Below, piece after piece: positions 2,346 through 55,392 of a stretch of 64,000 nucleotides of DNA. Source of the stretch: Collinsella sp. TF08-11AT (GTDB lineage Bacteria; Actinomycetota; Coriobacteriia; Coriobacteriales; Coriobacteriaceae); NCBI RefSeq assembly GCF_003437035.1, contig NZ_QSRL01000008.1:40798-104797 (forward strand). The letters are read 5' to 3'. The position numbers were made by a program, and so were the translations under genes. The notes beneath the pieces were generated by a model. That model was not told where the DNA came from. It did not search any database and saw only the letters and a list, made by a program, of their open reading frames with translations. Within the stretch, counting starts at the first letter, position 1, and each line of letters begins with the position of its first letter.

Positions 2346-4257
2346 GGCAACGACCGCCGAGCGCGCGCTCAACCGCAAGGGCGGCACCATGTCGCGCCTC
2401 ATCAAGACGCTCTTTGGCTTCTATCCCGTGCTTTTGCCCCTTGTCGTCGCCGGCGTGGTGCTCTGCGCCATCATCAACTCCGTCGGCGCGACCTTCCTGC
2501 AGAGCGCCCTGCAGATTATTAGCGAATCGTGGCAGTCGGGCGATTGGGAAGCCGCACAGCCCAAGATTCTGCAGCTCGTGACCACCCTCGCCTGCATCTA
2601 CGGCGTCGGTGTCCTGTCCTCGCTCTTCTGGAACCGCGCCATGGCTATCGTCACGCAGGGCTCGCTCGAGAAGCTGCGCGAGATGATGTTCAACCGCATG
2701 CAGGACCTACCGATCCGCTACTTCGACACGCACCAGCGCGGCGATATCATGAGCCACTACACCAACGACATCGATACGCTGCGCCAGATGATCAGTCAGT
2801 CGCTGCCCAACCTGCTCATGACGATCATCATCATTGTCACGGTGTTCTTTATCATGCTGTACTACAGCGTGTGGATGTGCCTGGTCATCATCGCCGGCGT
2901 CGCCTTTATGACCTTTATGACCAAGCTGCTCGGCTCCAATTCCGCGCGTTTCTTCATTGCGCAGCAGACCGAGCTCGGCGTGGTCGAGGGCCATATCGAG
3001 GAGGTCATGAACGGCCAGAAGGTCGTCAAGGCGTTCTGCCACGAGTCTGCCGCCGAGGCCGATTTTGACGAGCGCAACGAGAAGCTCTTCGAGGTCTCGC
3101 AAAAGGCCAACATGTACGCCAACATCCTCATGCCCATCCTTATGAACCTGGGCAACCTGCTCTACGTGCTGGTGGCCCTTGCCGGCGGCATTTTCCTGGC
3201 ACTGGGCGTGCCCAACCTGAGCATCTCGGGCATGGCGCTGTCCATCGCCGTCGTGGTGCCGTTCCTCAACATGACCAAGCAGTTCTGCGGACAGATCGGC
3301 CAGATCTCGCAGCAGATCAACGCCGTGGTCATGGGCCTCGCCGGCGCCGACCGCATCTTTGAGCTCATCGACGAGAAGCCCGAGGCCGACGAAGGCTACG
3401 TGACGCTCGTCAACGCACAGGTGAACCCCGAGACTTGGGAGTTCGAGGAGGCTGACCACCACACCGGCATGTGGGCATGGAAACATCCGCACCGCGCAAC
3501 CGGCGAGATCGAGTACGTACCGCTGCGCGGCGACCTGGTCATGGACAACGTCGACTTTGGCTACACGCCCGACCACGAGGTGCTGCACGGCGTGTCCGTG
3601 TTTGCCAAGCCGGGCCAGAAGGTCGCGTTTGTCGGCGCCACCGGTGCCGGCAAGACGACCATCACCAACCTCATCAACCGCTTCTACGACATCGCCGACG
3701 GCAAGATCCGCTACGACGGCATCAACGTCAACAAGATCCGCAAGGCCGACCTGCGCCGAAGCCTGGGCGTCGTGCTGCAGGACGTGAACCTGTTCACCGG
3801 CACCGTGATGGATAACATCCGCTACGGCAACCTGGATGCGACCGACGAGGAGTGCATCGCGGCGGCCAAGCTCGCGGGCGCGGACGACTTTATCACCCGC
3901 CTGCCCGACGGCTATGACACCATGCTCACCGGCAACGGCGCCCAGCTGTCGCAGGGCCAGCGCCAGCTGATCTCGATCGCCCGCGCTGCCGTCGCCGATC
4001 CGCCGGCAATGATTCTGGACGAGGCAACGAGCTCCATCGACACCCGCACCGAGGCTATCGTGCAGGCGGGCATGGATAAACTCATGGAGGGCCGCACGAC
4101 GTTTGTCATCGCGCACCGCCTGTCCACCGTGCGCAACTCCGACGCGATCATCTGCCTGGACCACGGCCGCATCATCGAGCGCGGCAACCACGACGAGCTG
4201 ATCGCCAAGCGCGGGTATTACTACCAGCTGTACACGGGTGCGTTTGAGCTGGAGTAG
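2338..4257 (+). CDS. ABC exporter subunit, consensus ATPase site (pair 1, second subunit)
   Basis: A 639-residue ABC exporter half with an N-terminal transmembrane domain and a C-terminal nucleotide-binding domain. Walker A is GATGAGKTT (about residue 433), the signature is LSQGQ and Walker B ends MILDEATSSID with Glu562 intact. A 35-residue insert rich in Trp/His (about residues 365-400) joins the two domains. The start overlaps the previous stop by 8 bases, and AAGGAGG lies 9 bases upstream of the ATG. With the preceding subunit it should form a heterodimer in which this chain supplies the working Walker B, and its LSQGQ loop completes the degenerate site of the partner. Confidence 0.92.
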   Translation: MSKATTAERALNRKGGTMSRLIKTLFGFYPVLLPLVVAGVVLCAIINSVGATFLQSALQIISESWQSGDWEAAQPKILQLVTTLACIYGVGVLSSLFWNRAMAIVTQGSLEKLREMMFNRMQDLPIRYFDTHQRGDIMSHYTNDIDTLRQMISQSLPNLLMTIIIIVTVFFIMLYYSVWMCLVIIAGVAFMTFMTKLLGSNSARFFIAQQTELGVVEGHIEEVMNGQKVVKAFCHESAAEADFDERNEKLFEVSQKANMYANILMPILMNLGNLLYVLVALAGGIFLALGVPNLSISGMALSIAVVVPFLNMTKQFCGQIGQISQQINAVVMGLAGADRIFELIDEKPEADEGYVTLVNAQVNPETWEFEEADHHTGMWAWKHPHRATGEIEYVPLRGDLVMDNVDFGYTPDHEVLHGVSVFAKPGQKVAFVGATGAGKTTITNLINRFYDIADGKIRYDGINVNKIRKADLRRSLGVVLQDVNLFTGTVMDNIRYGNLDATDEECIAAAKLAGADDFITRLPDGYDTMLTGNGAQLSQGQRQLISIARAAVADPPAMILDEATSSIDTRTEAIVQAGMDKLMEGRTTFVIAHRLSTVRNSDAIICLDHGRIIERGNHDELIAKRGYYYQLYTGAFELE

Positions 4258-4272
4258 GAACGGTTACTGACG

Positions 4273-4380
4273 GAGGGTTCCCCGGGGACGGGCGGGGTAT
4301 TTCCTCCGCGCTCAAACATTCTCGCTGCGCTGCGAAACTGCGCGCGGAGGAAATACCCCGCCCGTCCCCGGGGCGCCCTC
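4273..4380. repeat. Long inverted repeat after the ABC operon
   Basis: Two arms of about 38 bases (4273-4311 and 4342-4380) are nearly perfectly complementary and flank a 30-base spacer. The arms are GC-rich (they contain CCCCGGGGACGGGCGGGG) and lack a T-run. It lies between the ABC stop codon and a conventional terminator. It resembles the other long intergenic hairpins in this window (11551, 37748, 38288, 56902) in design but not in sequence. Confidence 0.75.
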
Positions 4381-4424
4381 CTGCGCGCAGTCAGCCCGTC
4401 GTTTAGAACGGAATAAAAGTTAGT

Positions 4425-4460
4425 GAGGCCCTGGCCGTTTGGCCAGGGCCTCGTTTTGTT
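4425..4460 (+). terminator. Rho-independent terminator of the MarR-ABC operon
   Basis: A perfect 12-bp stem (GAGGCCCTGGCC / GGCCAGGGCCTC) with loop GTTT is followed by GTTTTGTT. It is placed 170 bases after the second ABC gene. Confidence 0.85.
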
Positions 4461-4550
4461 AGTCTTTTTGGGACGGGGCTTTTTGACTACTTTGAGGGTG
4501 CGCAGGCAGGGCGGCGAAAGTAGCTAAAAAAGCCCCGTCCCAAAAAGACT
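4461..4550. repeat. Dispersed hairpin element, GGGACGGGGC family, copy 1
   Basis: Arms of about 33 bases (4461-4493 and 4517-4550) are inverted copies beginning AGTCTTTTTGGGACGGGGCT. The same element recurs in slightly degenerate form at 53092-53166. The T-rich arm could act as a terminator for either flanking operon, here the ABC genes (+) and the LysR gene (-). Confidence 0.75.
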
Positions 4551-4566
4551 ACCCGCGCCAAATGAG

Positions 4567-5445
4567 CTAGTTGAGGAGTTGGGCCATGGCGTTGACGAAT
4601 TTTTGTACTTGGAGGGTGGGCTCGAGCGGGTAGTGCAAGAAGACCGGCACCTCGCGGCCGCATAGGAACGGCACGCCCACAAAGGCCGGGTGCACACCCG
4701 ACCATGCGCCGCAGGTGAGCACCGCGTCGCCCTTTTCCTCGGCTTCGTTAAAGAGCGCAAAGTCGAAGCTATCCACGTCGATCACGTCCACGCCGCCGTC
4801 GGCCAAAAGGTCAATGCGCAGGCTGTCCATGGCGTCGTTGCCGTGGCGCAGTACGCGCAGACGCATACCCTCCAAGTCGGCGATCGAAATACGGTTCTTG
4901 CGTGCCAGCGGGCTCGTGCGCGGCAGGTCGATATAAAACGGCACGTTGACAATGCGGAGCTTTTGGCAGGCATCACCCCAGCGCGGGGTCGAAAAACTCG
5001 ACTGCACCACATCCACCTCGCGCCCCAGACCTCGCATGACGGTCTCGCGCTCATCGTAAAGGTCCCCCACCGGCACAATCTCAAAACGCAAGCGCGGCTC
5101 CATGTCGTGCACCTGCGGCCACAGCGCGAGCGTGTGGCGCCCCGGGCACATCATCGATACGCCCAGGCGCACCGCACCGCCATCGCCCGCCGCTCGCCGG
5201 GCGCGGCGCAACGCATCCTCGGATTGGCGCATAATCGAGCGCGCGTCGTCCACCAACAGCGCGCCCGCCGGCGTCACCTTGACGCCCGAGTGCGAGCGCT
5301 CGAACAACGTGATGCCAAACTCGGCCTCGAACCCCGACACCTGTTTGACGAGCGCCGGGGTCGACACGCGCAGCTTTGCCGCGGCACGCGAGAAACTTCC
5401 CAGCTCCGCGGCGGCCGAAATAGCGTCAAGTCGTCGATCGTACAC
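4567..5445 (-). CDS. LysR family transcriptional regulator
   Basis: A 292-residue LysR regulator. The N-terminal helix-turn-helix runs through residues 1-60 (LDAISAAAELGSFSRAAAKL, then STPALVKQVSGFEAEFG and LFERS), followed by a periplasmic-binding-like effector domain. I chose the GTG at 5445 because GGGAG lies 6 bases upstream and the protein then starts at the usual distance from the helix-turn-helix; a GTG at 5478 would add 11 residues. It is divergent from the SDR/MFS/oxidoreductase operon and, by LysR convention, probably activates that operon and represses itself. Effector unknown. Confidence 0.88.
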   Translation of the reverse strand: MYDRRLDAISAAAELGSFSRAAAKLRVSTPALVKQVSGFEAEFGITLFERSHSGVKVTPAGALLVDDARSIMRQSEDALRRARRAAGDGGAVRLGVSMMCPGRHTLALWPQVHDMEPRLRFEIVPVGDLYDERETVMRGLGREVDVVQSSFSTPRWGDACQKLRIVNVPFYIDLPRTSPLARKNRISIADLEGMRLRVLRHGNDAMDSLRIDLLADGGVDVIDVDSFDFALFNEAEEKGDAVLTCGAWSGVHPAFVGVPFLCGREVPVFLHYPLEPTLQVQKFVNAMAQLLN

Positions 5446-5542
5446 GTCAATCTCCCGTTTTCGCACGCGCGGGCCCACAGCGCCGCAGGGGGTCGTTTTC
5501 GCAGGTCACACGCTCAATTGCGAACAAACCTCAATGCACAGT

Positions 5543-5559
5543 GTAAACCTACGGTTAAC
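5543..5559. promoter_or_regulatory. Candidate LysR operator
   Basis: GTAAACC-TAC-GGTTAAC is a near-perfect inverted repeat of the T-N11-A type in the divergent LysR/SDR promoter region, about 100 bases from the regulator start and 120 from the SDR start. Assignment rests on position and symmetry only. Confidence 0.45.
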
Positions 5560-5678
5560 GCCATTCTAACAAATATGCAATTCACCTGCGCGAACGCTAA
5601 GCATACGATAACCAGCGAAAACCACGTGGGTCGGTTAATGGGAGCGACCCACAGGGAGGCACAAGAAGGGAAGTTCCT

Positions 5679-6560
5679 ATGAGCAATTGGCTTAAGCTCG
5701 AGGGCGATGTCTGCGCCGTGACTGGCGCGCTCGGCGGTATGGGCGCCGAGATTTGCCGCGAGTTCGCCCGCAACGGCGCCAATGTCGTCCTGCTCGACCT
5801 GGACGAGGAGAAGGTCAAGGCCGCAGCCGCCGACCTCGCCGCCGAGTTTGGCATCCACGCCGAGGGCTACAAGATGAACGCCACCGACGAGGCCGAGGTT
5901 CAGGCCGCCGTCGACGCCACCATCGCCGAGTTCGGCCGCGTCGACGTTCTCGTCAACACCGCCGGCATCCTGCGCTTCGCCGCCATGGAGGACCTGCCGC
6001 TGAGCGACTGGGAGCAGGTGCTCAACGTCAACCTCACCGGCTACTTCATCACCTCGCAGCGCTTTGGTCGCGAGATGATCAAGGCCGGCCAGGGCCGCCT
6101 GGTGCACATCTCGACCGTCGCTAGCCACTCCCCCGAGACGTTCTCGGGCGTGTACAGCTCCACCAAGGCGGGCGTCAACATGATGTCCAAGATGCTCGCC
6201 GCCGAGTGGGGCCCTTACGGCGTGCGCTCCAACTGCGTCGAGCCCTGCTTTGTCAAGACCCCCATGTCGGCGAGCTTTTACGCCGACCCCGAGGTCGAGA
6301 AGAGCCGCAGCCGCCTCATCGCCACGCGCCGCATCGGCGAGGTCAGCGATATCGCCAACGCCGTCATGTTCCTGGCGTCCAAGCGCTCGGACTTTACCAC
6401 CGGCGACGCCATCAAGGTCGATGGCGGCTTCTCCAATATGATGGGCGACCTCACCGCCAAGCCCGGCGGTCGCCGAGCCTTTGCCGACAACTACCTCAAG
6501 AACAAGGGTGTCGAGCTTTGGTCCGATGAGTCCGGCGTCGCAAAGCCGACTGACCAGTAA
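5679..6560 (+). CDS. SDR family NAD(P)-dependent oxidoreductase
   Basis: A 293-residue short-chain dehydrogenase/reductase. The cofactor-binding motif TGALGGMG is near residue 16, an Asp after beta-2 (LLDLDEE) favours NAD(H), NTAG follows strand 4 (VLVNTAG), and the catalytic Ser and Tyr-x3-Lys (YSSTK) are present. A C-terminal extension of about 35 residues follows the usual VDGG end. It starts an operon with an MFS transporter and a Gfo/Idh/MocA enzyme. Two oxidoreductases plus a transporter under a LysR regulator suggest uptake and oxidation of a sugar acid, polyol or cyclitol, but the substrate cannot be read from the sequence. Confidence 0.88.
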   Translation: MSNWLKLEGDVCAVTGALGGMGAEICREFARNGANVVLLDLDEEKVKAAAADLAAEFGIHAEGYKMNATDEAEVQAAVDATIAEFGRVDVLVNTAGILRFAAMEDLPLSDWEQVLNVNLTGYFITSQRFGREMIKAGQGRLVHISTVASHSPETFSGVYSSTKAGVNMMSKMLAAEWGPYGVRSNCVEPCFVKTPMSASFYADPEVEKSRSRLIATRRIGEVSDIANAVMFLASKRSDFTTGDAIKVDGGFSNMMGDLTAKPGGRRAFADNYLKNKGVELWSDESGVAKPTDQ

Positions 6561-37747: not shown

Positions 37748-37878
37748 CGTCTGCCTGGCGGCGCGGAATGTAAGGTTCCCTGCTCGGACAGTCCTGCTCG
37801 CACGGAGAGCACATTAAGTGCTCTCCGGCTCGTGCGGAACTCGCGATGAACCTTACATTCCGCGTCGCCAGGCAGACG
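37748..37878. repeat. Long nested hairpin after the LtaS-like gene
   Basis: Outer arms of 31 bases (37748-37778, 37848-37878) contain CTGCCTGGCG and GGAATGTAAGGTTC and pair with one or two mismatches. The inner stem GGAGAGCAC / GTGCTCTCC encloses ATTAA. A related small hairpin, AAGGCCACATTAAGTGGCCTT followed by CTTTAT, stands at about 37934-37958 and may be the true terminator of the upstream gene. Confidence 0.75.
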
Positions 37879-37961
37879 CCTCGGTGTTGAAGCGCGGCTT
37901 GTCATGAAAGCATCCGCAACATATATAAGTTGAAGGCCACATTAAGTGGCCTTCTTTATAT

Positions 37962-38292
37962 TCGGAAAGTGTGTCCCGGAATCTGCCTTCGGAATGGGAC
38001 GCAGTTTCCGCTTGAGGGCCTGTTGGGAAAGCGCATCCCACTTCAAGAGAAAATTCCGGGTCGCACTTTCCGCTAAGGCTCTCAACCGGAAAGTGCATTC
38101 CATTCCAAGCCTTAATTCCGGGACATAGTTTCCGGACAAGACATCAACCGGAAAGTGGGGACCACTCTGAGCGCCGATTCTGGGACACACTTTCCGAAAC
38201 CCCGCCCATCCGGAAAGCCCGTCCCACTCCGTATACATCCAGGCATGAAATCATCAGCTTATTAGGCCTTCTATCAATAAAGAGACACCCTC
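37962..38292. repeat. Cluster of short inverted/direct repeats (TTCCGGGAC family), copy 1
   Basis: At least four or five units of roughly 70 bases alternate between motifs like TTCCGGGACGCAGTTTCCG and CCGGAAAGTGCATTCCATTCC. From about 38176 to 38292 the sequence aligns with 47758-47874, including the shared block ATCAGCTTATTAGGCCTT and CATCAATAAA. The arrangement resembles the BIME/REP clusters of enterobacteria. Open frames across it reflect the repeat and lack ribosome sites. Confidence 0.7.
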
Positions 38293-38409
38293 CCGGGCGG
38301 CGGGCACGAAGTTCATCGCGAGTTCCGCACGCAAAGAAGACCACTTAATGTGGCCTTCGTCTTGCGCAGGACTGTAGAGCTGGGAACTTCGTGCCCGCCG
38401 CCCAGGAGG
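38288..38409. repeat. Long nested hairpin before the surface operon's 3' end
   Basis: Outer arms of about 26 bases (GGGCGGCGGGCACGAAGTTC and complement) enclose an inner stem CACTTAATGTG that repeats the motif found in the hairpins at 37748 and 37934. It lies 22 bases beyond the last gene of the minus-strand surface operon and could end its transcript. Confidence 0.7.
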
Positions 38410-38431
38410 GCGTTGCGTTTAGAAGATGGAC

Positions 38432-39130
38432 CTAGCGCTTGTTCCTCCGGGACAAGAGAAGCGCGGCTATAAAAGCGATGATGGCAAGCGCCAGCAACAC
38501 CAAAAGCAAAGCGAGCGTGTTGTCGCCCGTTGCCGCCAGACCAAGCAAGCCGGGCTTCTTGCTGCCAGCAGGTTGTACGGGGATCTTCTCGCCATCGTCT
38601 TCGGCGGTGATTTCCCAGCGAATTGCCTTGTTTGCGTCGGCAAGCTCGTTGCCCACCGACGTCGGGACACTTAGTTGCAAATTGAGTACCGTGCTGCCAT
38701 CGCTCGTAAACGTTGCGACCTGCGTGGGATAGGCAAACACGCTGCCCGGCGTTCCCGTCTGGAGCCAACCGGCAGACGCATCGGCCGCCGACGCCGTTAG
38801 GGTAATGGGCGACAGCAGATGTGCCGTCTCGTGATCGACAACAGCCCGCACAAACACACGTACCTGGGACTTTACACCCGTGGCACGAACCCCAATCTGT
38901 TGCTCGCGTACATCGCCGGGCATTAGATCTTTAAAGGCTGGAAACAGATCGGGCTCCCCCGAGGAGTCCGTCGCTCCCGATACCGTTAGCTGGCGTGCAT
39001 TTCCGTCATAGGCAATCGAGGGCGTATCGGCGAACGCACGGGCAGGAACGGCGAGCGCGACCACGCAGAAAATGGCCGCGACCACACAACGCAAGGAACG
39101 CGCAACGTCTTTGAAAATCGGTAAAGCCAT
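38432..39130 (-). CDS. Wall-anchored camelysin/TasA-like surface protein with LAATG sorting signal
   Basis: A 232-residue exported protein. A signal peptide (about residues 1-34, ending ARAFADT) is followed by a beta-rich domain with DLFPAFKDLMPGD, typical of TasA/camelysin-like proteins, then LAATGD, a hydrophobic stretch (ALLLVLLALAIIAFIAALLL) and RRNKR. That tail is a sortase signal of the LAXTG kind recognised by class E sortases. GGAGG lies 9 bases before the ATG at 39130. Last gene of the surface operon; probably ties the structure to the wall. No sortase gene is in the window. Confidence 0.75.
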   Translation of the reverse strand: MALPIFKDVARSLRCVVAAIFCVVALAVPARAFADTPSIAYDGNARQLTVSGATDSSGEPDLFPAFKDLMPGDVREQQIGVRATGVKSQVRVFVRAVVDHETAHLLSPITLTASAADASAGWLQTGTPGSVFAYPTQVATFTSDGSTVLNLQLSVPTSVGNELADANKAIRWEITAEDDGEKIPVQPAGSKKPGLLGLAATGDNTLALLLVLLALAIIAFIAALLLSRRNKR

Positions 39131-39132
39131 GC

Positions 39133-39702
39133 TTACGCACCTCCGTGCGGCGGCACCAGCACGCCATCTTTGACCGTACAGTTCCATGCCTCGGTGACCG
39201 CATCGTCGGGCGTAGACTGAATCGCTTGGGTCGAGATGTCAACAACTAGGTTTTTACCATCTGCCTTCTTCTCGGACACGCCCTTGATGAGCACGCCCGT
39301 CTTGTCGAGCGGCGCAACAGGAGACGTCCAGTAGTAGAACCCGTCGGCCGAGCGAACCCAAGACGAGGCGCTGCCAGTAGTTGAGGCATTGGACACGTTG
39401 CCCCACACAATGGCGTAGTCGGTACCCTCGACCGGCTCATCCCACAGGCGCGCGCCATCCTGGTCCTGCCAGTAGATATCCACCGCAGCACGCAGGTATG
39501 CCGGAGCCGAGCCCTTGTTTGTAATCGTGACGTCACTCTTCACGTTGCCATTGAGCTTCTCGTCTACCGAGGGCGCCACCGAACCAAAGCCAAACTCGTT
39601 GACCAGCACGCCCGTAACCGAAAGCCACGCAAAGGTGCCGGCAGCGCCAGCCAAAAGAAGAACGCCGACAAGGAGGGCAACGATCTGCTTGCGCTTACCC
39701 AT
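39133..39702 (-). CDS. TasA/camelysin-like protein with SipW-type signal peptide (C)
   Basis: A 189-residue exported protein. The N-terminus MGKRKQIVALLVGVLLLAGA followed by AGTFAWLSVTG is the pattern of SipW-dependent signal peptides, cut after the conserved Trp region. The mature part is beta-rich (DVTITNKGSAPAYLRAAVDI; DGFYYW) as in TasA/CalY proteins that form fibres. Its start is 1 base after the stop of the giant protein and it ends 2 bases before the anchor gene, so all are co-translated. Confidence 0.75.
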   Translation of the reverse strand: MGKRKQIVALLVGVLLLAGAAGTFAWLSVTGVLVNEFGFGSVAPSVDEKLNGNVKSDVTITNKGSAPAYLRAAVDIYWQDQDGARLWDEPVEGTDYAIVWGNVSNASTTGSASSWVRSADGFYYWTSPVAPLDKTGVLIKGVSEKKADGKNLVVDISTQAIQSTPDDAVTEAWNCTVKDGVLVPPHGGA

Positions 39703-39703
39703 C

Positions 39704-42700
39704 CTAGTCCTCCCTCCTTAGCGTGCCGTTTTCCCAAACATTCTTGGCACGCGAGCCACCATCGACCCATTTGTCCTTCGCGCGCGTGTTAACGCACGTC
39801 ACCACGGCGTCGCCTGCGCTCGAAGCAGACGAAATCGTCAGCTCGGCAGTTTTACCGGGCGCCTTGCCCGGCGTGCTCAGCTCGCCCCGGTAGCGCCATG
39901 CCCAAGCCGTATCTTCCTCGACGGTATAGATGCCCGCCGGAGCGGCGAACTGCACGCTGCCGACATACCAGGTCTCACCGTTTTCCGGCTGCTGCTTATC
40001 GACTTTCACCTCGACCATGCGCGTCTCGGCAGGAGAATCCTGCGACATCTTTCGCGTTACCTTAAAGCGGAACGTTTGCCCCATAGCGCTGGCATCGGTC
40101 GTCTTTTTAACGATCGTCAGCGCATGAGTCTGGGCAAAGTTGAACACGGCTTTGCCGGGGCCCTGATCGCCCTCGCCCGTCTTCTTGGACTCCAGACGGT
40201 TGGCCAGGTCGAACGAGCCGCCACCCGAACCCAGACTGTAGAGCGAGACAAACTTGCCGTTCACAGGCTTTTCCGCCGCAGAAACGCCCTCTGCACCAGG
40301 GCCGTAGCTTGCCTGCGTTACCGTAACGGTCAGTTGTGTTCCCATAAACGGCTCGGCAAAGCAGACCTTAAACGGCGCCTGGTCGGCACCGTCATCGACG
40401 GTGTTGGCGGCGGCGGGATCGAGCAGCCATTTAAGCTGCGCGGTCATGGTTACGGGTTTCGCGGGATCAGACGTATCGTTGGCAACCACGCGATACGTCA
40501 CGGGATACAGGTCCATGTCGCCCTTGACTGGCTCGCCCTTGAACTCATCCCAAGACTTTGCAGTGCCATCGGCACCCACATATCGCCACTCCAAGAAGAG
40601 CTCGCGCTTATCGCCATTGGCAGCAGCCTGTTCATCGAGCAGCGCGACGATCTTGGAGTGGGCGTCCGGATCGTACGCCACGGATTTTTGCTCCATCACA
40701 GGATTGCCGTCGTTGTCGTAGAAAGGGTTGCCGCTCTCGTCCATTTTGGGAACATCGACCGTGTAGACAAAGCCAGGCTTACCGTCCTGCGCGCGCTCGT
40801 CGCCCGAGTCGACCGTCGCCGTAAAGATGACCGCCCCGTCGACGCTGTGATAGCGCACCTTATACGGCGTGACCTTGTACACCGCGGTATACGTCGCGCC
40901 CTTAAAGGGTTCACTACCCTCGAGGGGATACTTATCGTCTTCGGTCAACAGGGTGTATTTGCCATCGGGTTCATAGTCGCGCGACCAGCCGACAAAGTCG
41001 TACTTGGTGCCGTCAATGCCGACAACCTCAGCTGTAGCTCTTACTTCCAGCGAAATTTGATCGCCAGAGTCGGTGCGCGAAAGAGAACGCACGGAATCGG
41101 GGTTATCCAGATTGGCATCGATATTCGATTGGACAATTACCGCGCTGGCACGGTAGACCGGGTACAGCTCCATGGGGGCGTTAACCACAGTGTTTGTATT
41201 CACCATGGGAAGGCCGTCCGACCAAACGACATAACAGTTGCCGGATGCCGGTTTAGTTTCCGTCCAGCCTACGAAGGCATTGTATGCGTTCGTTGCATCA
41301 TCGATGTCGCCAACGTTATACGTCGGCAGCGGGATGCCGTCCTTAAGGCTGCCGAGCGTATCGCCCTGCTGGGCTACCTTGCCATCCACATCTTTGGCAT
41401 TGAGATGGTACACGACCGCCAACGGCGAATAGTACGCCACAAATGTATAGGCTCCGCCGGGTTCCACCTGATAGGAATACGAGTTATCGCCGTTAGGTTC
41501 GAGCTTTTTAACCTCACCGTTCGGGAGTTCGATTTCGACCTTATTCAGCTTGTATAACTCGCCGCCGGACTTGTATACCGTCGTTTCGATATCAGGAGTC
41601 ACCGTTGCCGTGGCGGGATCGTTGTCCGCATTGAGATTAGGGGTGATGTCATACCTAGGAACATTCACCTCGGAAGTGCCATTAAAACCGGCGCGGTGCA
41701 GGTTGGTGGTGTAGTTGACGTCGAACTTTGCGTAGACGGGATAGGCATCCTGACACTTGGTGACCTTGAAGTCATCCGTCGCCAAGTATGGCGCCGCCTT
41801 TTCCGGATCGCTCGTCACATAGGGGTCGTTGGCGACATCATAGATATAGTTCCAGACGGGAGAATCCTTCTGGACCTCGGCGGTCGAAATCCAACCCAAG
41901 AACTTATATCTCGGATCCGGCTCGCCCTTAGGATTCCGCACGGCCATTTCAGTATCGGTCGGAGAAGACTCGAGGGTCAGGGGGCTCTCATACGATCCCT
42001 TCTCACCATCTTCTGGCTTTTCGGCCACTTTAACCGACTTATTAACATGCGGGTAGTAATACGTGAACGTCGGATCCGCCCCGTTCACCTTGGTCTGCAG
42101 CAAGTTACTCTCATAGCGCCGCGTGGCAGTCCTCACGACATTATCGCCCTTGTTGTAGAAATTAACGTCCGTGGTAATCATCGCGCGAACGTAGTACTTC
42201 TTATCTGTACGCACCATGCTCTCGATGGGATTTTTCACATATGTCCAATATTCACCATCGCGCTCAAGCGTCCAGAAATTCAGGCGATAGCGATCATTCA
42301 CCGGTTTGACCGTTACGTTCAGCGAAGCCGAAGTCCAAGTATCGCTTAGCGTTGCAGCGCCTGGAAAATCGGTATCGGCATAGAGGTTTTTTAGAGTATC
42401 GGCTCCCGTATCGTTTTTAACGTTGTGCGAGTACGCGTTAAGGGGACTCACGACAAGGGTTTCCTTCGTGAAGCGTGTGCCACACGTTTCATAACTATCC
42501 TTTATACCGTGGTCAACATGCTCCGGGCCCCAGTGGACGACGTTTTCACGCACGAAGGTACTACCGACGTTTTCCTCAAAGGGCGTTTGATAGCGATTCC
42601 AAACGGAACAAAGTAGCTTGCTGTCCGTAAACTCATGGTTGGTATAAGCCCGAACGTAATAATCCACTCGGTACTCAAAGCGGGCGATGTAGGTATGCGG

Positions 42701-45202
42701 CGCGGTTAAATCGACATCGGTGGGGAGCGTATAGCTGGGATCGCGGCTTACGCGCACCTCAAGCGGGGCATCCTCGGTTCCCTTGTTTTCATACCAACCC
42801 AGGAAACGGTAGCCGTCGGGCAGCGCACCGTCCTCTGATAAAGGCTTGTTGTCCACGTCGCACACCCGCACCGTGTACACACCGGTGCCATCCTCGTCAG
42901 TCTCAACCTTAACGTCAGTTTTGCCCACACCATCGCGCCGAGTCTGATCGTCGATTGCATCCTGCTCATTGCCCTCAAACACCGTCATGATGTTCGACAC
43001 ATAGTCGGTGTACACCGGATAAAAATCGGTAGGGCCAAGCACAGTGATCTCAGCGCCGGCAGGATAGAACGCACCGGCGTTTTTTAGCTCGGCAAGCTTA
43101 GGCGAGGTGATGGCCGCGTAACCGCCATGCATCCCGGCCTCGCCGCTCGGCTGCGTCGTCCAACCAATAAAGGTGGCGCTGGCAGATAGAGTGCCGCGGT
43201 CCGCAGGGGCAACCGGCGTTAAACCGACACCATAGCGGTACCAATCCGTCGACTTGTCGTGCGCCTCGCCGCTCTGCCACGAGAGCATCTCACCCTTGAC
43301 GTTATAGAACAGCACCTGCGCCTCGTACGAAGCAATAAAGAGGTCGTTGCCCTTAAAGGCCTCGGCCCCCTTCGCGTTATCGGCAGTATAGGTCGACGTT
43401 TTGTCGTTTGCCTCGTTCTTCTGGACCTGCTTGCCAGCAGCCACAGCATCGGCATCGGTCTTGCCGTCAAACCAGCTGTTGTCTTGTCCAATTCGGTTCA
43501 CACGCACATCGGGCTCGCGGAACCAGCCCATAAAGCGGTAGCCGCCGTTCGCCTCGCTCAGGTCGGCAGGCTTTGCAGAGGTCTCCTGCTTAAACGTTAC
43601 CGAGGTATCGCCCTGGGCCAAGCCCTGAGCAGTTCCCGCCAGCACGGCACTCACGGCAAAGGCATACGGATCCGAGGTCGCCTGATCAATACCGAGTTTG
43701 GTTGCCGTAATAGTCGCGGTACCCGCACCGGGAAAATCGATCGTCGCCTTAACGCTTTGGCCATGCACGGGGATATTCAGCTTGTAATCCATCGCCCATT
43801 CGTTTGCATGGTCGCCGCCCAGATAATCGTTATTGGCAGTCGAGCGCATGGTGCCGGCACAGAAGTCGTAGTCGTGCTCTTCCCATAGCTCACGCGTGGT
43901 ATAGCGCTCGTCGTCCCACGGGCCATAGCCGTCGCCCTTGGTGGTACCGTCGCCGCCAAAAGAGGGGATCTTCTTCTTAGCCGCGGTACCCTGGCTGCTG
44001 CCGTTTAGGCTCACGCTCGGCTTAAAGTAGCACTCGGTGACCGTGGCGTCGCCCTTGTTGGCGCGCGCAGCAATACCGCCCAGGTTCACGTCGTTTTGGA
44101 TGATGGGGATCACGGCGATGGGGTTGTATTGACGCGAGCTCAGGTCACCTGCAAAGTGGCTGCGGACGAGCTCATTGCCTTCTTTGGTTAAAATACGACC
44201 CGCCAGGCCACCCGCCCACGCGCGCGTCACGGCGACAACGCCCACGTACGACGCGGCATAGCTGTAGCACTGGGCCGTCGAGAAGCAGTCGATGATCTTG
44301 GCGTCACCTGCCATGCAGCCCACAAAGCCCGAGGCGTACACGTTGTTGCCGCCCAGGGCGCCAATGGCCACGTCGTACTTATTGGTGACGTCGGTCATGC
44401 CCTTCTCGGCAATCGAGCCGTCGTCCTTACGCGTCGGCGTCACGCGGCAGTACTCGATAGTCGATTTCTCAACGTAGCCGGCAAACGCCGCCATATACAG
44501 ACCCTCACCGCCGAGCGCCTGCACGCCCGAAGTCGTGTTGTTAACGGCGCGGCCACCACGTACCTCGCAGTTATAGAGGGTACAGCCGTCGAGCTCGCCG
44601 GCGATGAGACCGCCCTCAAAGCCTGCGTTGGTAATGAGGTTGAGAGCATTGTTGGCGCAGGTCACGTGCAGCGTGCTCTCCATGACCATAACGTTTTCGA
44701 AACGCGTATTGACGGCCTTGCCCACGATAATGCCACCGCGGAAGTCCGCCCACACGTTGGCGTCCTTGACCAGGAAGTTTTTGATGGTGGCACCGTTGGT
44801 CTCGGCAAAAAATCCCGTATCGCGCTCGGGGTCAAAAGCGTCTTTATCGTAGTTCAGGCCCTCAACGGTGTGGTTTTGACCATCGAACACGCCCTTAAAC
44901 GGATGCTCCTTGTTGCCAAACGACAGATGCTTAACGGTGTTTGCAACGATGTCTTTCATGTCGTCGCTGTCGAGCTCAATGTCGTTATCGAGATAAACGT
45001 GCCAGCCGGACGTATCGCGCTCGCGCGACAGCGCCACACACGACAAAAAGTCAGCCTCGTTTTTGATGTGGAATTCGTTTTTGTTCTCGGGCACGTCCTC
45101 GGCATGCACCGCCGTCGGCAGCGCCATAACGCAGCAAATGGCAATCGTCGCGACGGCAACTAGCCTGCTAAGCACGCCCCGGTTCATGTTCTTGATCTTC
45201 AT
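39704..45202 (-). CDS. Giant repeat surface protein (GLUG-like N-terminus, InlB-B-like repeats)
   Basis: An 1832-residue exported protein. Signal peptide about 1-35 (cut near VHA-ED). Residues about 40-450 form a right-handed-helix-like region with GLUG-type motifs (FDGQNHTVEGLNYD; GGIIVGKAV; GFVGCMAGD; GGLAGRI). From about 490 to 1640 come at least seven blocks with F(x)GW and YPVY/YxAxF signatures (YRFMGWFREP, ATFIGWTTQP, YRFLGWYENKG, YKFLGWIST, AFVGWTETKP, YDFVGWSRDY), related to Listeria-Bacteroides/InlB B-repeats. The end is a prealbumin-like domain (LTIVKKTTDA, GIYTVEED) closing with NTRAKDKWVDGGSRAKNVW. It has no sortase motif. Likely an adhesin or scaffold attached through its TasA-like partners. 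Confidence 0.8.
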   Translation of the reverse strand: MKIKNMNRGVLSRLVAVATIAICCVMALPTAVHAEDVPENKNEFHIKNEADFLSCVALSRERDTSGWHVYLDNDIELDSDDMKDIVANTVKHLSFGNKEHPFKGVFDGQNHTVEGLNYDKDAFDPERDTGFFAETNGATIKNFLVKDANVWADFRGGIIVGKAVNTRFENVMVMESTLHVTCANNALNLITNAGFEGGLIAGELDGCTLYNCEVRGGRAVNNTTSGVQALGGEGLYMAAFAGYVEKSTIEYCRVTPTRKDDGSIAEKGMTDVTNKYDVAIGALGGNNVYASGFVGCMAGDAKIIDCFSTAQCYSYAASYVGVVAVTRAWAGGLAGRILTKEGNELVRSHFAGDLSSRQYNPIAVIPIIQNDVNLGGIAARANKGDATVTECYFKPSVSLNGSSQGTAAKKKIPSFGGDGTTKGDGYGPWDDERYTTRELWEEHDYDFCAGTMRSTANNDYLGGDHANEWAMDYKLNIPVHGQSVKATIDFPGAGTATITATKLGIDQATSDPYAFAVSAVLAGTAQGLAQGDTSVTFKQETSAKPADLSEANGGYRFMGWFREPDVRVNRIGQDNSWFDGKTDADAVAAGKQVQKNEANDKTSTYTADNAKGAEAFKGNDLFIASYEAQVLFYNVKGEMLSWQSGEAHDKSTDWYRYGVGLTPVAPADRGTLSASATFIGWTTQPSGEAGMHGGYAAITSPKLAELKNAGAFYPAGAEITVLGPTDFYPVYTDYVSNIMTVFEGNEQDAIDDQTRRDGVGKTDVKVETDEDGTGVYTVRVCDVDNKPLSEDGALPDGYRFLGWYENKGTEDAPLEVRVSRDPSYTLPTDVDLTAPHTYIARFEYRVDYYVRAYTNHEFTDSKLLCSVWNRYQTPFEENVGSTFVRENVVHWGPEHVDHGIKDSYETCGTRFTKETLVVSPLNAYSHNVKNDTGADTLKNLYADTDFPGAATLSDTWTSASLNVTVKPVNDRYRLNFWTLERDGEYWTYVKNPIESMVRTDKKYYVRAMITTDVNFYNKGDNVVRTATRRYESNLLQTKVNGADPTFTYYYPHVNKSVKVAEKPEDGEKGSYESPLTLESSPTDTEMAVRNPKGEPDPRYKFLGWISTAEVQKDSPVWNYIYDVANDPYVTSDPEKAAPYLATDDFKVTKCQDAYPVYAKFDVNYTTNLHRAGFNGTSEVNVPRYDITPNLNADNDPATATVTPDIETTVYKSGGELYKLNKVEIELPNGEVKKLEPNGDNSYSYQVEPGGAYTFVAYYSPLAVVYHLNAKDVDGKVAQQGDTLGSLKDGIPLPTYNVGDIDDATNAYNAFVGWTETKPASGNCYVVWSDGLPMVNTNTVVNAPMELYPVYRASAVIVQSNIDANLDNPDSVRSLSRTDSGDQISLEVRATAEVVGIDGTKYDFVGWSRDYEPDGKYTLLTEDDKYPLEGSEPFKGATYTAVYKVTPYKVRYHSVDGAVIFTATVDSGDERAQDGKPGFVYTVDVPKMDESGNPFYDNDGNPVMEQKSVAYDPDAHSKIVALLDEQAAANGDKRELFLEWRYVGADGTAKSWDEFKGEPVKGDMDLYPVTYRVVANDTSDPAKPVTMTAQLKWLLDPAAANTVDDGADQAPFKVCFAEPFMGTQLTVTVTQASYGPGAEGVSAAEKPVNGKFVSLYSLGSGGGSFDLANRLESKKTGEGDQGPGKAVFNFAQTHALTIVKKTTDASAMGQTFRFKVTRKMSQDSPAETRMVEVKVDKQQPENGETWYVGSVQFAAPAGIYTVEEDTAWAWRYRGELSTPGKAPGKTAELTISSASSAGDAVVTCVNTRAKDKWVDGGSRAKNVWENGTLRRED

Positions 45203-45205
45203 AGG

Positions 45206-45853
45206 CTAGTTCGCCTCCGGCCAACCCACAACGTCAAGTACGTCGAGGGCGGTATCGCTTGCCTGCTGGTTTTTGGCCTGCACGGCCTGAACATCGATAT
45301 CGAGCCTGAATGAGCCGCCGCGCGCGGCATCGTGGTAGTCGTCCACAAAGCGCAGCGAGTCCATGAGGCTTTCCGTCATGGCGCCGGGGTCGAGCGTGCC
45401 GCCACGCCCGGCCAATCCGCGGTAGTAGTACCACCCATCGCCGCCATCGACCCACGGGAACCCCTCGCCCGCGTTCACATGAAACGCAACGCTGCCCGAA
45501 GCATCCGCGCTCGAACCGTCGGGCGCCACCGACGTCATGCGCAGACGCGCGCGAACGTACTCAGGCTGCGTGCCAGCGTTCTCCACGCGCACAATGCGGC
45601 TGATGTCAGAACCCCCGGCCTTGGTGTCGGGATAGTCCCCGTGCTCGTTGGGCTCAAACGGAATCTCCTCGCCCTGCTCGTTGAGGGTGTATTCGCAGAC
45701 TCGTACCTTCACGCTGCCAAACGATAGAACGTTGTTCGCCGGAACCATATCAACGGTAAAAGCCAGCGTGCCGCACAGGCACGCCAGGGCCAACAGCGCC
45801 ATCGCGGCAAGCGCCAAGGTGCGTTTCTGATTGTCGGAAAGATTATTGAGCAT
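45206..45853 (-). CDS. TasA/camelysin-like exported protein (B)
   Basis: A 215-residue exported protein with an N-terminal hydrophobic segment (TLALAAMALLALACLCGTLAF) and a beta-rich mature part. NVLSFGSVKVRVCEY, then VRVENAGTQPEYVRARLRMT and DGWYYYRG resemble protein C and the CalY/TasA fold. The ATG at 45853 is taken as start; a TTG four codons earlier is possible and neither has a strong ribosome site. It ends 3 bases before the giant gene and follows the intercistronic hairpin. Confidence 0.68.
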   Translation of the reverse strand: MLNNLSDNQKRTLALAAMALLALACLCGTLAFTVDMVPANNVLSFGSVKVRVCEYTLNEQGEEIPFEPNEHGDYPDTKAGGSDISRIVRVENAGTQPEYVRARLRMTSVAPDGSSADASGSVAFHVNAGEGFPWVDGGDGWYYYRGLAGRGGTLDPGAMTESLMDSLRFVDDYHDAARGGSFRLDIDVQAVQAKNQQASDTALDVLDVVGWPEAN

Positions 45854-45882
45854 TACGTTCGCCAATCGTCGATAAGGGGGGG

Positions 45883-45933
45883 ACCGAGATCCCGGCCCGA
45901 AAATGGGGGTGGGGAGCGGACCGGGATCTCGGT
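45883..45933 (-). promoter_or_regulatory. Intercistronic hairpin between TasA-like genes A and B
   Basis: Arms ACCGAGATCCCGGCCCG (45883-45899) and CGGACCGGGATCTCGGT (45917-45933) pair over 17 bases with one mismatch around a 17-base loop. No U-run follows, so partial termination or 3' protection of the upstream message is more likely than full termination. This would raise protein A relative to the genes downstream. Confidence 0.65.
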
Positions 45934-45949
45934 GGAGGGGGTTGGATTA

Positions 45950-46636
45950 CTACAGGTCCTTAGCCCAATCCTTGGCAGCAGCCTCAGCAGACGCAGCCGA
46001 GCCCTCAGTGGTGCTGTCTTCAGCGTAAACGAAGCAGTTGACCGTCATCTTGGCATCCTTGGCGAAATCCTTTTGCTCGGTCTCCTTGGGCGTAGTCACA
46101 TTGCTGAACAGCTCACCGGTCCACTTGTCCTCGGTCTTGCTGGCAATAAGCGGAGTGGCCTCGGTCTCATTGCCAACATAAACGAAAAGGCCACCGAGAT
46201 AATGAGTCGGTTCGCCCTCAACAGCGGTCGCCTCAACGGCCTCCCAACCCTTGTTAATGGTGAAGTAAGTCGTCTTGGAATCAGCAGTCCCAGCAGACGC
46301 TGTCTCGTTCTTCACGAAAACGTACACATAAGCGTTTTCGGACCCCTTGCCAATACCGACATTAGGATTCTTAGGAACAGACACGCCAGGGGCGAGCTTG
46401 GAGTCCGCAACCCAGTTAGTCTCGGTCAGATTGCCGTTGACCTTAGCCTTGTCATCCGGAATCGGCTGATCCGGATTATCAGGATTAGTGGTGGGGTGGT
46501 TGATGCCCGCAGTAGTGAAGTTGTTGGTCAGGCTCGACTGCGCCGTCAGCCATGCATAGGTACCCACGCCGGCAGCCAGCACCAACAGCAGCAGGGCGGC
46601 AATGATGCCGTAGCGCTTTTTCTTCTTGTTTTCCAT
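45950..46636 (-). CDS. TasA/camelysin-like protein with SipW-type signal peptide (A)
   Basis: A 228-residue exported protein. MENKKKKRYGIIAALLLL and VLAAGVGTYAWLTAQSSLTN form a textbook SipW-dependent signal peptide. The mature part carries a Pro/Asp-rich linker (TTNPDNPDQPIPDD), then ENAYVYVFVKNE and an Ala/Glu-rich end. AAGGAAG precedes the ATG at 46636. First structural gene after sipW and separated from the rest by a hairpin, so it may be the most abundant component, possibly the fibre subunit. Confidence 0.78.
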   Translation of the reverse strand: MENKKKKRYGIIAALLLLVLAAGVGTYAWLTAQSSLTNNFTTAGINHPTTNPDNPDQPIPDDKAKVNGNLTETNWVADSKLAPGVSVPKNPNVGIGKGSENAYVYVFVKNETASAGTADSKTTYFTINKGWEAVEATAVEGEPTHYLGGLFVYVGNETEATPLIASKTEDKWTGELFSNVTTPKETEQKDFAKDAKMTVNCFVYAEDSTTEGSAASAEAAAKDWAKDL

Positions 46637-46706
46637 CGTTCTCTTCCTTTCGAGAATCGTCTTCCCCGGCAACGGCCCCTACCGCCGCCGACGCTTTTCC
46701 CTGCCG

Positions 46707-47264
46707 CTATGAACGCCGCTCCCTCGCATGCACGCGGGCATGCTTGCCCGCAGGCTCGTCGGGAACCATCCGATCGAGCACTATCGACGCCGTGATCAGC
46801 AGCGCCAGAACGGCAACCACAACAAGCAAACCAGGCATCGTCGTGCAATATGCGTTGACGAAGCCCAGGTAAGGGACACAAAAAGAAACAGTGCCGATAA
46901 CACTCGAAAAAGGCGTCTGCTCGGCATCGTGCATGATGCTTCCGTCTGCATTTTTGTTCGCAATTCCCTGCGTGCCGATCATCTGCGCGGCAGGGTCGAT
47001 CTCGTACACCTGGTGCGTCACCACGGCGCCGTCCGATCGGTAAAAGGTTGCATTGTCGCCCACGGCAATATCCGTTGGCTCAACCTGGCGGACAAACACG
47101 ATGGAGCCAACGGGAAGCTCGGGTTCCATAGAGCCCGAAAGCACAGCAAAGGGCGTGTATCCAAATGCGCGAGGCACAAAAGAAACAACGGCAAGGGCTA
47201 TGACAAGCGCGAACGCCAAGCTACTCAAAAGTGCAATAAATCGTTTGAGTCTACGCGCCGTCAA
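46707..47264 (-). CDS. sipW: Signal peptidase I, SipW (ER-type) family
   Basis: A 185-residue membrane serine protease with transmembrane segments near residues 9-30 and 140-165. The nucleophile is Ser45 in AVLSGSMEP. Its general base is His84 in VVTHQVYEI rather than the usual bacterial Lys, the mark of SipW/ER-type enzymes, with GTQGIANKNAD as the acidic block. The start is a TTG at 47264 because an in-frame stop lies four codons upstream; GGGGGA is about 12 bases away. In Bacillus subtilis SipW processes TasA and TapA; here it heads an operon of three TasA-like proteins. Confidence 0.85.
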   Translation of the reverse strand: MTARRLKRFIALLSSLAFALVIALAVVSFVPRAFGYTPFAVLSGSMEPELPVGSIVFVRQVEPTDIAVGDNATFYRSDGAVVTHQVYEIDPAAQMIGTQGIANKNADGSIMHDAEQTPFSSVIGTVSFCVPYLGFVNAYCTTMPGLLVVVAVLALLITASIVLDRMVPDEPAGKHARVHARERRS

Positions 47265-47562
47265 AGTGATAATTCATCCCCCTTGAGGACCTATTCGACC
47301 CATCCAAAGGTCAGCAAGTTTCAACAGGAACCGCAAGGCGCTTGAAAAGTGAGTCCGAAATAAGCCAATTTGGAATCTTTTCGTAATAAAAACATAGCGA
47401 TGTGCTACACATTTTTCAATGTTTTATCGCTAAATGCTACTTATTTTGGCGTAAGTGGTCATTTATCCCCAAATTAGTCTGTTTTATCCAATACTTATAA
47501 CTAACCCCCTACGCAACTTCCCCATAGAAGGTTCGATTTTTTGCGGAACTAAAATAATGGTA

Positions 47563-47575
47563 CCCCCCCCCCCCC
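47563..47575. repeat. Thirteen-base C/G homopolymer upstream of the surface operon
   Basis: A run of 13 C (13 G on the operon strand) stands in an AT-rich stretch about 300 bases upstream of sipW. The region 47265-47600 otherwise holds no gene and has the composition of a promoter region. Such tracts can change length by slipped-strand mispairing. Confidence 0.85.
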
Positions 47576-47667: not shown

Positions 47668-47880
47668 CTGGAAGCCATGTCCCAGAATTCCCGTCCGGAG
47701 TGGGATGCGACTTCCGCTTGTGGCCCCGTTGGGAAACCACATCCCACTCCGATCACAAATTCCGGGACGCAGCTTCCGCAACCCCACCCATCCGGAAATC
47801 CCATCCCACTCCGCACACATCCGGGCATAGAACAATCAGCTTATTAGGCCTTCCATCAATAAAGGGGCGCCCTCGTGTCA
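47668..47880. repeat. TTCCGGGAC repeat cluster, copy 2
   Basis: About 200 bases with alternating GACTTCCGC, GGGAAACCACATCCCACTCC and TCCGGGACGCAGCTTCCG motifs. The stretch 47758-47874 aligns with 38176-38292 through the end block ATCAGCTTATTAGGCCTT. It borders the flavodoxin terminator. The two clusters bracket the surface operon in the same orientation. Confidence 0.7.
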
Positions 47881-47952: not shown

Positions 47953-48504
47953 CTACTCGCCCAGCACGGCCTTCTTTGCGGCTGCGGCCATGTTATCCAG
48001 ATCCTCCTTGGTGGGGTGATCCTTCGCGGCAACCCAGTTGTCGAGCAGCATCTTAAATCGGGCGTTTTCGGGATCTCGCTCGAGCATGGCCTCGTAGCGC
48101 TGCTTGACCGCGGGGCCCATCTTGCCCTGGCACATCGCCCAGCCCGCAAGCTCGGCATCATTAGCCAAGTTAGACGATACGCGGTCGATAATCTGCCTAA
48201 AGTACTCCTCGCTGGCGCCAAAACCGCAGGTGCCAAACAGGAAAACGCGCTTACCGTGCAAGGCGGAGAGCAACGCCGCGACCGAAGGCGTGCACGCGCC
48301 CTTGTCGCACCAAAAACCGACAAGCACCGTGTCGGCCGCGCAGGCGCCCTGCGCCTCGAGCGCAACCTGATCTGCATCCGCATCGTCGCTCAACGCCGCA
48401 GCATGGACAAACTCAACGCCCGCAGCCTGCAGAGTGCGCTTGATCGCACCCGAAACCATTCTGGTATTACCGCTCTTGCTGTTAACCACCAAAGAGCACG
48501 TCAT
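47953..48504 (-). CDS. Flavodoxin family protein (BilS-like)
   Basis: A 183-residue flavodoxin-fold protein. The FMN-phosphate loop is VVNSKSGNTRMV near the N-terminus, followed by VLVGFWCDKGACTPSV and VFLFGTCGFGASEEYF around the isoalloxazine ring. The C-terminal half with WAMCQGKMGPAVKQRYEAML and DNWVAAKDHPTKEDLDN is like the flavodoxins called BilS, partner of bilirubin reductase; no bilR is in the window, so that role is unproven. ATG at 48504 used; a GTG six bases earlier sits 4 bases from GAGG. Monocistronic, with a repeat array upstream. Confidence 0.75.
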   Translation of the reverse strand: MTCSLVVNSKSGNTRMVSGAIKRTLQAAGVEFVHAAALSDDADADQVALEAQGACAADTVLVGFWCDKGACTPSVAALLSALHGKRVFLFGTCGFGASEEYFRQIIDRVSSNLANDAELAGWAMCQGKMGPAVKQRYEAMLERDPENARFKMLLDNWVAAKDHPTKEDLDNMAAAAKKAVLGE

Positions 48505-48660
48505 AGTCACGTTGCCTCGTTTCCCCCAAAACTAAAGCCACTAATGCAATTTATTAGATGAATATCTTAGTACTAACGTGACAGATGTAAACCACCGTCT
48601 GTCGATTGGCGACGCAGACGACATCTTTGGACAGATTTCGAACAGTATGTACTTCGGATT

Positions 48661-55302: not shown

Positions 55303-55392
55303 GGAGAGATGGCAGAGCGGTTGAATGCGGCGGTCTTGAAAACCGTTGAGCGCGAGAGCGTTCCGGGGGTTCGAATCCCCCTCTCTCCGCCA
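55303..55392 (+). tRNA. tRNA-Ser (anticodon TGA)
   Basis: A 90-base class II tRNA. The acceptor arms GGAGAGA / TCTCTCC pair, the anticodon stem-loop CGGTCTTGAAAACCG shows TGA, a long variable arm (GAGCGCGAGAGCGTTC) is typical of Ser, and the T-arm is GGGGGTTCGAATCCCCC. CCA is encoded after discriminator G. It is divergent from the tadA fusion gene. Confidence 0.96.

Follow-up and report, generated by a model that had tools for sequence, protein, structure and literature searches.

A SipW/TasA-type surface operon of Collinsella and other Coriobacteriia with a giant protein, a sorting-signal protein, and a probable poly-G switch

In Bacillus, tapA-sipW-tasA of B. subtilis and sipW/TasA/CalY/CapP of B. 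cereus combine a dedicated SipW with TasA/camelysin-like substrates, and the B. cereus fiber system is described, in the available excerpts of these papers, as sortase-independent (PMC9674648, PMC10151520, PMC13082335). In Clostridium perfringens, sipW likewise stands first in an operon, sipW-bsaABCRSD, that encodes BsaA-family proteins; the accessible sections of that report state that this fiber operon is expressed heterogeneously and that its bimodality requires a two-component system and PilA2 (PMC7395162). A further precedent is given by the sortase-dependent pili of Bifidobacterium breve where, according to the available part of the source, G-tracts inside the first pilus gene slip and the pilins are sortase-linked (PMC9187656). 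Here we analyze a six-gene operon in a 64,000-nucleotide stretch of the Collinsella sp. TF08-11AT genome (the whole stretch is hereafter called the window), which probably encodes a cell-surface fiber of the SipW/TasA kind with on-off control by slippage of a poly-G tract. The genus is common in the human gut.

This kind of fiber is already known, and it is the giant protein, the protein with a sortase signal, and the poly-G tract that are the additions here. The Collinsella operon differs from those of Bacillus in these three features and in its BsaA-like proteins B and C, and neither TapA nor CapP could be recognized among the six genes; its protein A nevertheless has an N-terminal N-x-F segment where Bacillus TasA, in the excerpts cited above, has its donor strand. 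It differs from the C. perfringens operon in having the tract, the giant, and the LAATG protein, and none of its six genes is bsaRS-like. With the B. breve pili it shares an actinobacterial host, the gut, and the presence of G-tracts, but the Collinsella tract is intergenic (it lies in sipW only in genome G038) and the sorting signal is on protein D only. Archaeal bundling pili (PDB 7ueg) show a weak structural likeness to the model of A, but are archaeal. In a search of open-licence literature by title, nothing was found on Collinsella surface fibers or SipW/TasA, nor, among the titles listed, on SipW together with a poly-G switch; open-licence literature also gave nothing linking SipW to Eggerthella, and for homopolymer or promoter-spacer phase variation it gave mycoplasma work and nothing on Collinsella.

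All six open reading frames (ORFs) lie on the minus strand, running from 47264 to 38432, as the first-pass annotation had proposed. They encode, in order, the SipW-type signal peptidase (46707..47264, 185 aa, TTG start, assigned from the ORF and family matches); A, the TasA/camelysin-like protein and likely major subunit, with a hypervariable mature part (45950..46636, 228 aa); B, a BsaA-like putative minor subunit starting at the TTG at 45865 (45206..45865, 219 aa); the giant protein, with a beta-helix/GLUG head, InlB-B-like repeats, a prealbumin-like end, and a conserved unanchored tail (39704..45202, 1832 aa); C, a second BsaA-like putative minor subunit (39133..39702, 189 aa); and D, a protein with an LAATG sorting signal and the likely wall anchor (38432..39130, 232 aa). 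The junctions B-giant, giant-C, and C-D measure 3, 1, and 2 nucleotides, and the spacing of 1 to 3 bases that had been claimed therefore applies to the distal four genes; the proximal gaps are wider, with 70 nucleotides between sipW and A and 84 between A and B, counting B from its TTG. GGAGGT precedes the D start (ATG at 39130), and the longest D ORF, from 39187, would overlap C.

The candidate slippage switch, found by a homopolymer scan, is a run of 13 G on the coding strand of the operon (47563..47575, minus strand), ∼300 nucleotides before sipW, and it is the sole homopolymer of at least eight G/C or at least nine A/T in the window. At the same position, with similar flanking sequence, the tract is G13 in C. 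aerofaciens, G11 in G003, G10 in G035, and G9 in G026, G031, and G032, while the G9 tract of G008 is displaced to 3.9 kb upstream of sipW. ORFs resembling transposase/insertion-sequence genes by eye were seen between that G9 tract and sipW, at ∼2269-5879 of the G008 locus (L016). Tracts are also present in other lineages, with G9 in G017 and G335, G10 in G182, and G12 in G052, the last measured from an extra gene before sipW. In G038 a G9 tract falls within the beginning of sipW, and with the tract at its assembled length the start that has a ribosome site is not in the sipW frame; relatives have in-frame sipW genes. Among the 16 loci with visible upstream DNA (G220 was left out), 12 have a run of at least nine G within -500 to +60 of the operon start, at several different positions and with lengths of 9 to 13, whereas G092, G109, and G103 have none at the operon start and that of G008 is displaced. 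Elsewhere in the same loci we counted three runs in ∼516 bins (the displaced tract of G008 and one each in short stretches of G031 and G032), giving an enrichment at the operon start with a Fisher p of 9e-19, computed over loci of which those of one clade are not independent. The recurrence of the tract at the operon start, with lengths that differ between genomes, points to phase variation by slippage; as in loci that vary phase through homopolymers, the long tract lies by a gene or promoter start and is retained by relatives at differing lengths.

In G335 an intact G-run directly follows TTGAC in a promoter-like frame of the TTGACG type (shuffle p of 0.016), and interrupted G-runs occupy the same type of frame in G109 and G103 (G5CG4 and G5AG4, p of 0.037 and 0.032). 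A promoter bridging the tract was not significant against shuffles in G017 (p of 0.15), G052 (0.28), G182 (0.98), or the clade of the window (0.23 to 0.74). The shuffle tests therefore support a promoter-spacer switch in three lineages but not in the window's own clade. A promoter-like TTGAAA-17-TATGTT lies ∼145 nucleotides downstream of the window tract (47391..47419, minus strand), and similar sequence is seen by eye in aligned relatives, but one such site against 0.8 in shuffles is not above chance. Of the 43 Collinsella genomes, 41 have runs of at least ten G, mostly few per genome; overlapping counts are high in G008, G031, G032, and G033, in G008 mainly because of a few very long runs, and the closed genome G003 has two such sites, of which the operon tract is one. 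The use of poly-G tracts may extend further within Collinsella. Nine stretches from G003, G002, G006, and G007 (L099-L107) hold ten of these runs, several in or beside ORFs and one adjoining a masked stretch.

The alternative that survives best keeps the fiber and gives up the switch: the tract would be neutral or structural, and ordinary regulators would act on the operon. Three observations favor it and weigh against slippage, namely, the nonsignificant tract-bridging promoters in the window clade, G017, G052, and G182, the lack of a tract in G092, and the other long G-runs in nearly all Collinsella genomes. Against it stand the 12 of 16 loci with a tract at varied positions and lengths and the one tract within sipW, and we consider this alternative rather unlikely. 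Switching by slippage is preferred because the tract recurs at the operon start, an intact or interrupted G-run sits in a promoter-like frame in three lineages, the G038 tract falls in the sipW frame, and G-tract pili provide a precedent.

The gene order is identical in all seven contiguous Collinsella loci (the window, C. aerofaciens L013, G026, G008, G003, G038, and G017), and the operon is split across contigs in three Collinsella genomes (G031, G032, and G035). All seven loci of other Coriobacteriia with a long match to the giant (G182, G335, G092, G109, G052, G220, and G103) carry all six genes with order and strand unchanged, although their A to D and giant proteins are only 24 to 47% identical to those of the window; the six-gene unit is therefore more than a chance arrangement. 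With the giant as the query, nine of the 43 Collinsella genomes matched, eight at full length and G020 with a short piece. The sipW query matched 34 of the 43 at an E value of ≤0.001, but values of ≤1e-44 were obtained only in the same eight giant-bearing genomes, the next best being 3.6e-12. A profile of the giant matched 47 of 396 Coriobacteriia genomes, 14 with long matches and the remainder with short pieces, and the closest giants are encoded in Collinsella (five loci). In G052, the extra gene, whose product has a sorting-signal-like end, lies 3 nucleotides ahead of sipW.

Judged by its sequence, SipW is a signal peptidase of the endoplasmic reticulum type with a Ser-His arrangement, as had been annotated: it matches TIGR02228 with an E value of 1e-22 and 80.7 bits (cutoff, 51.85), has SGSMEP at residue 43 and THQ at residue 83, and finds SEC11C/SEC11A as solved relatives (E values of 2.5e-4 to 1.1e-3). 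The annotation had also counted three TasA/camelysin-like proteins, a description that fits A at the family level, while B and C are BsaA-like instead. The signal peptide of A scores 20.0 bits with the SipW-type model TIGR04088 (cutoff, 19), which 25 of 26 aligned members match. Camelysin PF12389 gives 14.8 bits with A of the window (cutoff, 22.5), and 23 of the 26 aligned members match at an E value of ≤0.1; Asn38 and Phe40 are invariant in the 26 sequences. TasA chains were absent from the profile-search matches of A against the Protein Data Bank (PDB). Structure prediction, suggested earlier as a check for donor-strand features and run on A, gave a divided answer, with the TasA fiber fourth in Foldseek and fimbrial donor-strand pilins listed, but a weak first match, the archaeal bundling pilus (E value of 4.5e-3, TM scores of 0.28/0.33). 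C scores 16.6 bits and B 17.5 bits with the BsaA family model TIGR04090, both under its cutoff of 60, and all 13 aligned members of C match at ≤0.01 (best, 1e-13). B and C are related by profile over their full length (hhalign, 99.6%), and 44 columns shared by A and C take in the signal peptide and the N-x-F segment (97.7%). At the family level, as far as profile matches can tell, A is camelysin-like and C is BsaA-like, with the window proteins themselves below the cutoffs.

D ends as expected of the LAATG-anchored protein that had been annotated, with LAATGD, a membrane segment, and a basic tail, but the LPXTG model scores 15.4 bits, just under its cutoff of 15.9. L-x-x-T-[GSN] is kept in 11 of 13 aligned D proteins and the other two have I-x-x-T-[GS]. 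D alone of the six proteins bears a sorting signal, which is not the pattern of a class C pilus, and no sortase gene was found among the six operon genes and the two flanking genes scanned. Sortase genes are instead located elsewhere in the genomes: the family is matched in all 43 Collinsella genomes, in 42 of them above the cutoff, and the three sortases of G003 comprise one of class C and two closest to class B but under its cutoff.

The six proteins might instead be secreted or wall-bound separately, with no joint fiber, an idea helped by the signal peptides of the giant and D, which look ordinary by eye and would not require SipW. We regard this as quite improbable given that the six genes are kept in order across genera and that BsaA of C. 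perfringens, whose family C matches, polymerizes and needs SipW for exit from the cell, as stated in the accessible part of that report (PMC7395162). A fiber is favored because the order is conserved in 14 contiguous loci, the giant and a close sipW occur in the same 8 of 43 genomes, and both the family matches and the Foldseek result for A agree with it.

The GLUG/InlB-B-like description of the 1832-residue giant holds at the family level, since Flg_new matches 9, Flg_new_2 (InlB B-repeat) 5, and Glug 4 of 13 aligned giants, but the window protein itself has no Pfam match at an E value of ≤0.1. Residues 36 to 745 were modeled with a mean pLDDT of 79.6; Foldseek placed beta-helix regions of IgA1 protease first (probability of 1.00, E value of 4.1e-3) and the Lactobacillus reuteri SRRP surface adhesin third (probability of 0.96). 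That the giant is an enzyme carried on the fiber and not an adhesin is very improbable, for although its head resembles the IgA1 protease regions and also PL6 lyases, and PF05342 (the M26 N-terminal region) matches 1 of the 13 giants at 0.017, no HExxH motif is found in its 1832 residues, no catalytic Pfam family matches among the 13, no Foldseek match of the head reaches an E value of ≤0.001, and the SRRP adhesin matches the same head.

No sorting signal is seen at the C-terminal end of the giant. Its tail (DKWVDGGSRAKNVW in the window) is similar across 13 relatives, with one invariant Asn, and the tail motif R-x-x-N-[VE]-F resembles the N-x-F-x-x-G of A and C. When the 13 giants were scanned for donor-strand-like windows, the best window of the last 45 residues ranked 1, 1, 2, 2, 3, 4, 6, 10, 13, 15, 17, 33, and 41 among 1706 to 2003 windows, the rows being homologous and the best-ranked tail window differing from the motif itself in 4 of the 13. 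The rank scan is suggestive, and no more than that, of docking of the giant on the fiber by a C-terminal tail that would imitate the donor strand of the subunits.

Mature A and the central part of the giant are hypervariable, whereas SipW, B, and D are conserved. Among seven Collinsella A proteins the signal peptides are 91 to 100% identical and the mature parts 40 to 100%, and mature A of the window is 40 to 44% identical to five of its six relatives and 81% identical to that of G032. Identity to the other window proteins is 90 to 95% for B, 86 to 95% for D, 81 to 98% for SipW and 72 to 84% for C (five compared for each of these two), and 73 to 88% for the giant. Compared with G026 in blocks of 100 nucleotides, sipW is 94 to 98% identical, the end of sipW with the A signal peptide 99 to 100%, mature A 54 to 77%, and B 93 to 100%; in the giant, 11 blocks at ∼41900-43000 fall to 48 to 77%, with further low blocks down to 41400. 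This mosaic pattern fits allele exchange by recombination. A profile search with A gave 777 clusters among 7993 scored, and the 120 matches listed are 42 to 50% identical to A of the window.

In this clade the operon is flanked by a sulfatase-fold gene (LtaS-like, under the cutoff of that model) and a BilS-like flavodoxin gene. Of the 23 genomes with a flavodoxin match, 7 have the flanking genes nearly adjacent, 0.4 to 0.7 kb apart, and G014 has them 1.4 kb apart; 5 carry an insert of 5.3 to 5.6 kb, 3 the operon on one contig, and 3 the split operon, and in 4 contig ends intervene. The insert (L087-L091, five Collinsella genomes) encodes a 1374-aa protein with an LANTG/LASTG/LSNTG end and a membrane segment, present as two ORFs in G034; the one such protein scanned had no NCBIfam match. 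A site that is near-empty in some relatives and holds the operon or another surface protein in others is therefore a surface-protein exchange site. In G038 and G017 the operon is at a different genomic place. The operon is bracketed by clusters of direct and inverted repeats (37748-38413 and 47670-47819), which may belong to the exchange site. The flavodoxin gene (47953-48510, minus strand) matches NCBIfam BilS NF045594 with 167.5 bits (cutoff, 155). Elsewhere in the window are a small SRP RNA (RF00169; 52938-53033, minus strand) and a tRNA-Ser(TGA) (55303-55392, plus strand).

The genes with their families and order, the tract with its recurrence and its length differences between genomes, the mosaic divergence, and the exchange site most likely belong to a phase-variable, antigenically variable donor-strand fiber with a giant adhesin. 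Gene set, families, and order thus support part of the fiber and adhesion interpretation made at first pass, and the fiber, adhesion, anchoring, switching, and subunit roles are what we infer from them. SipW would cut off the special signal peptides that A, B, and C carry, and A would polymerize by inserting its N-terminal segment (SLTNNF) into the next subunit, with B and C starting or capping the fiber. A sortase would join D to the wall, D would hold the fiber, and the giant would be the adhesive partner, retained through its conserved C-terminal tail. Recombination would diversify A and the central region of the giant, and poly-G slippage would turn the operon on and off. It is possible, though doubtful, that these elements define a separate class of Gram-positive pili in Coriobacteriia, that is, a donor-strand SipW fiber with a sortase-anchored base, a poly-G switch, and a giant docked by a donor-strand-mimicking tail.

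If the fiber is as proposed, the TasA-type fibers would gain a form that has a giant adhesin and is likely anchored to the wall, and a switchable, antigenically variable fiber in several Coriobacteriia genera would be a concrete cause of differences in colonization between strains.
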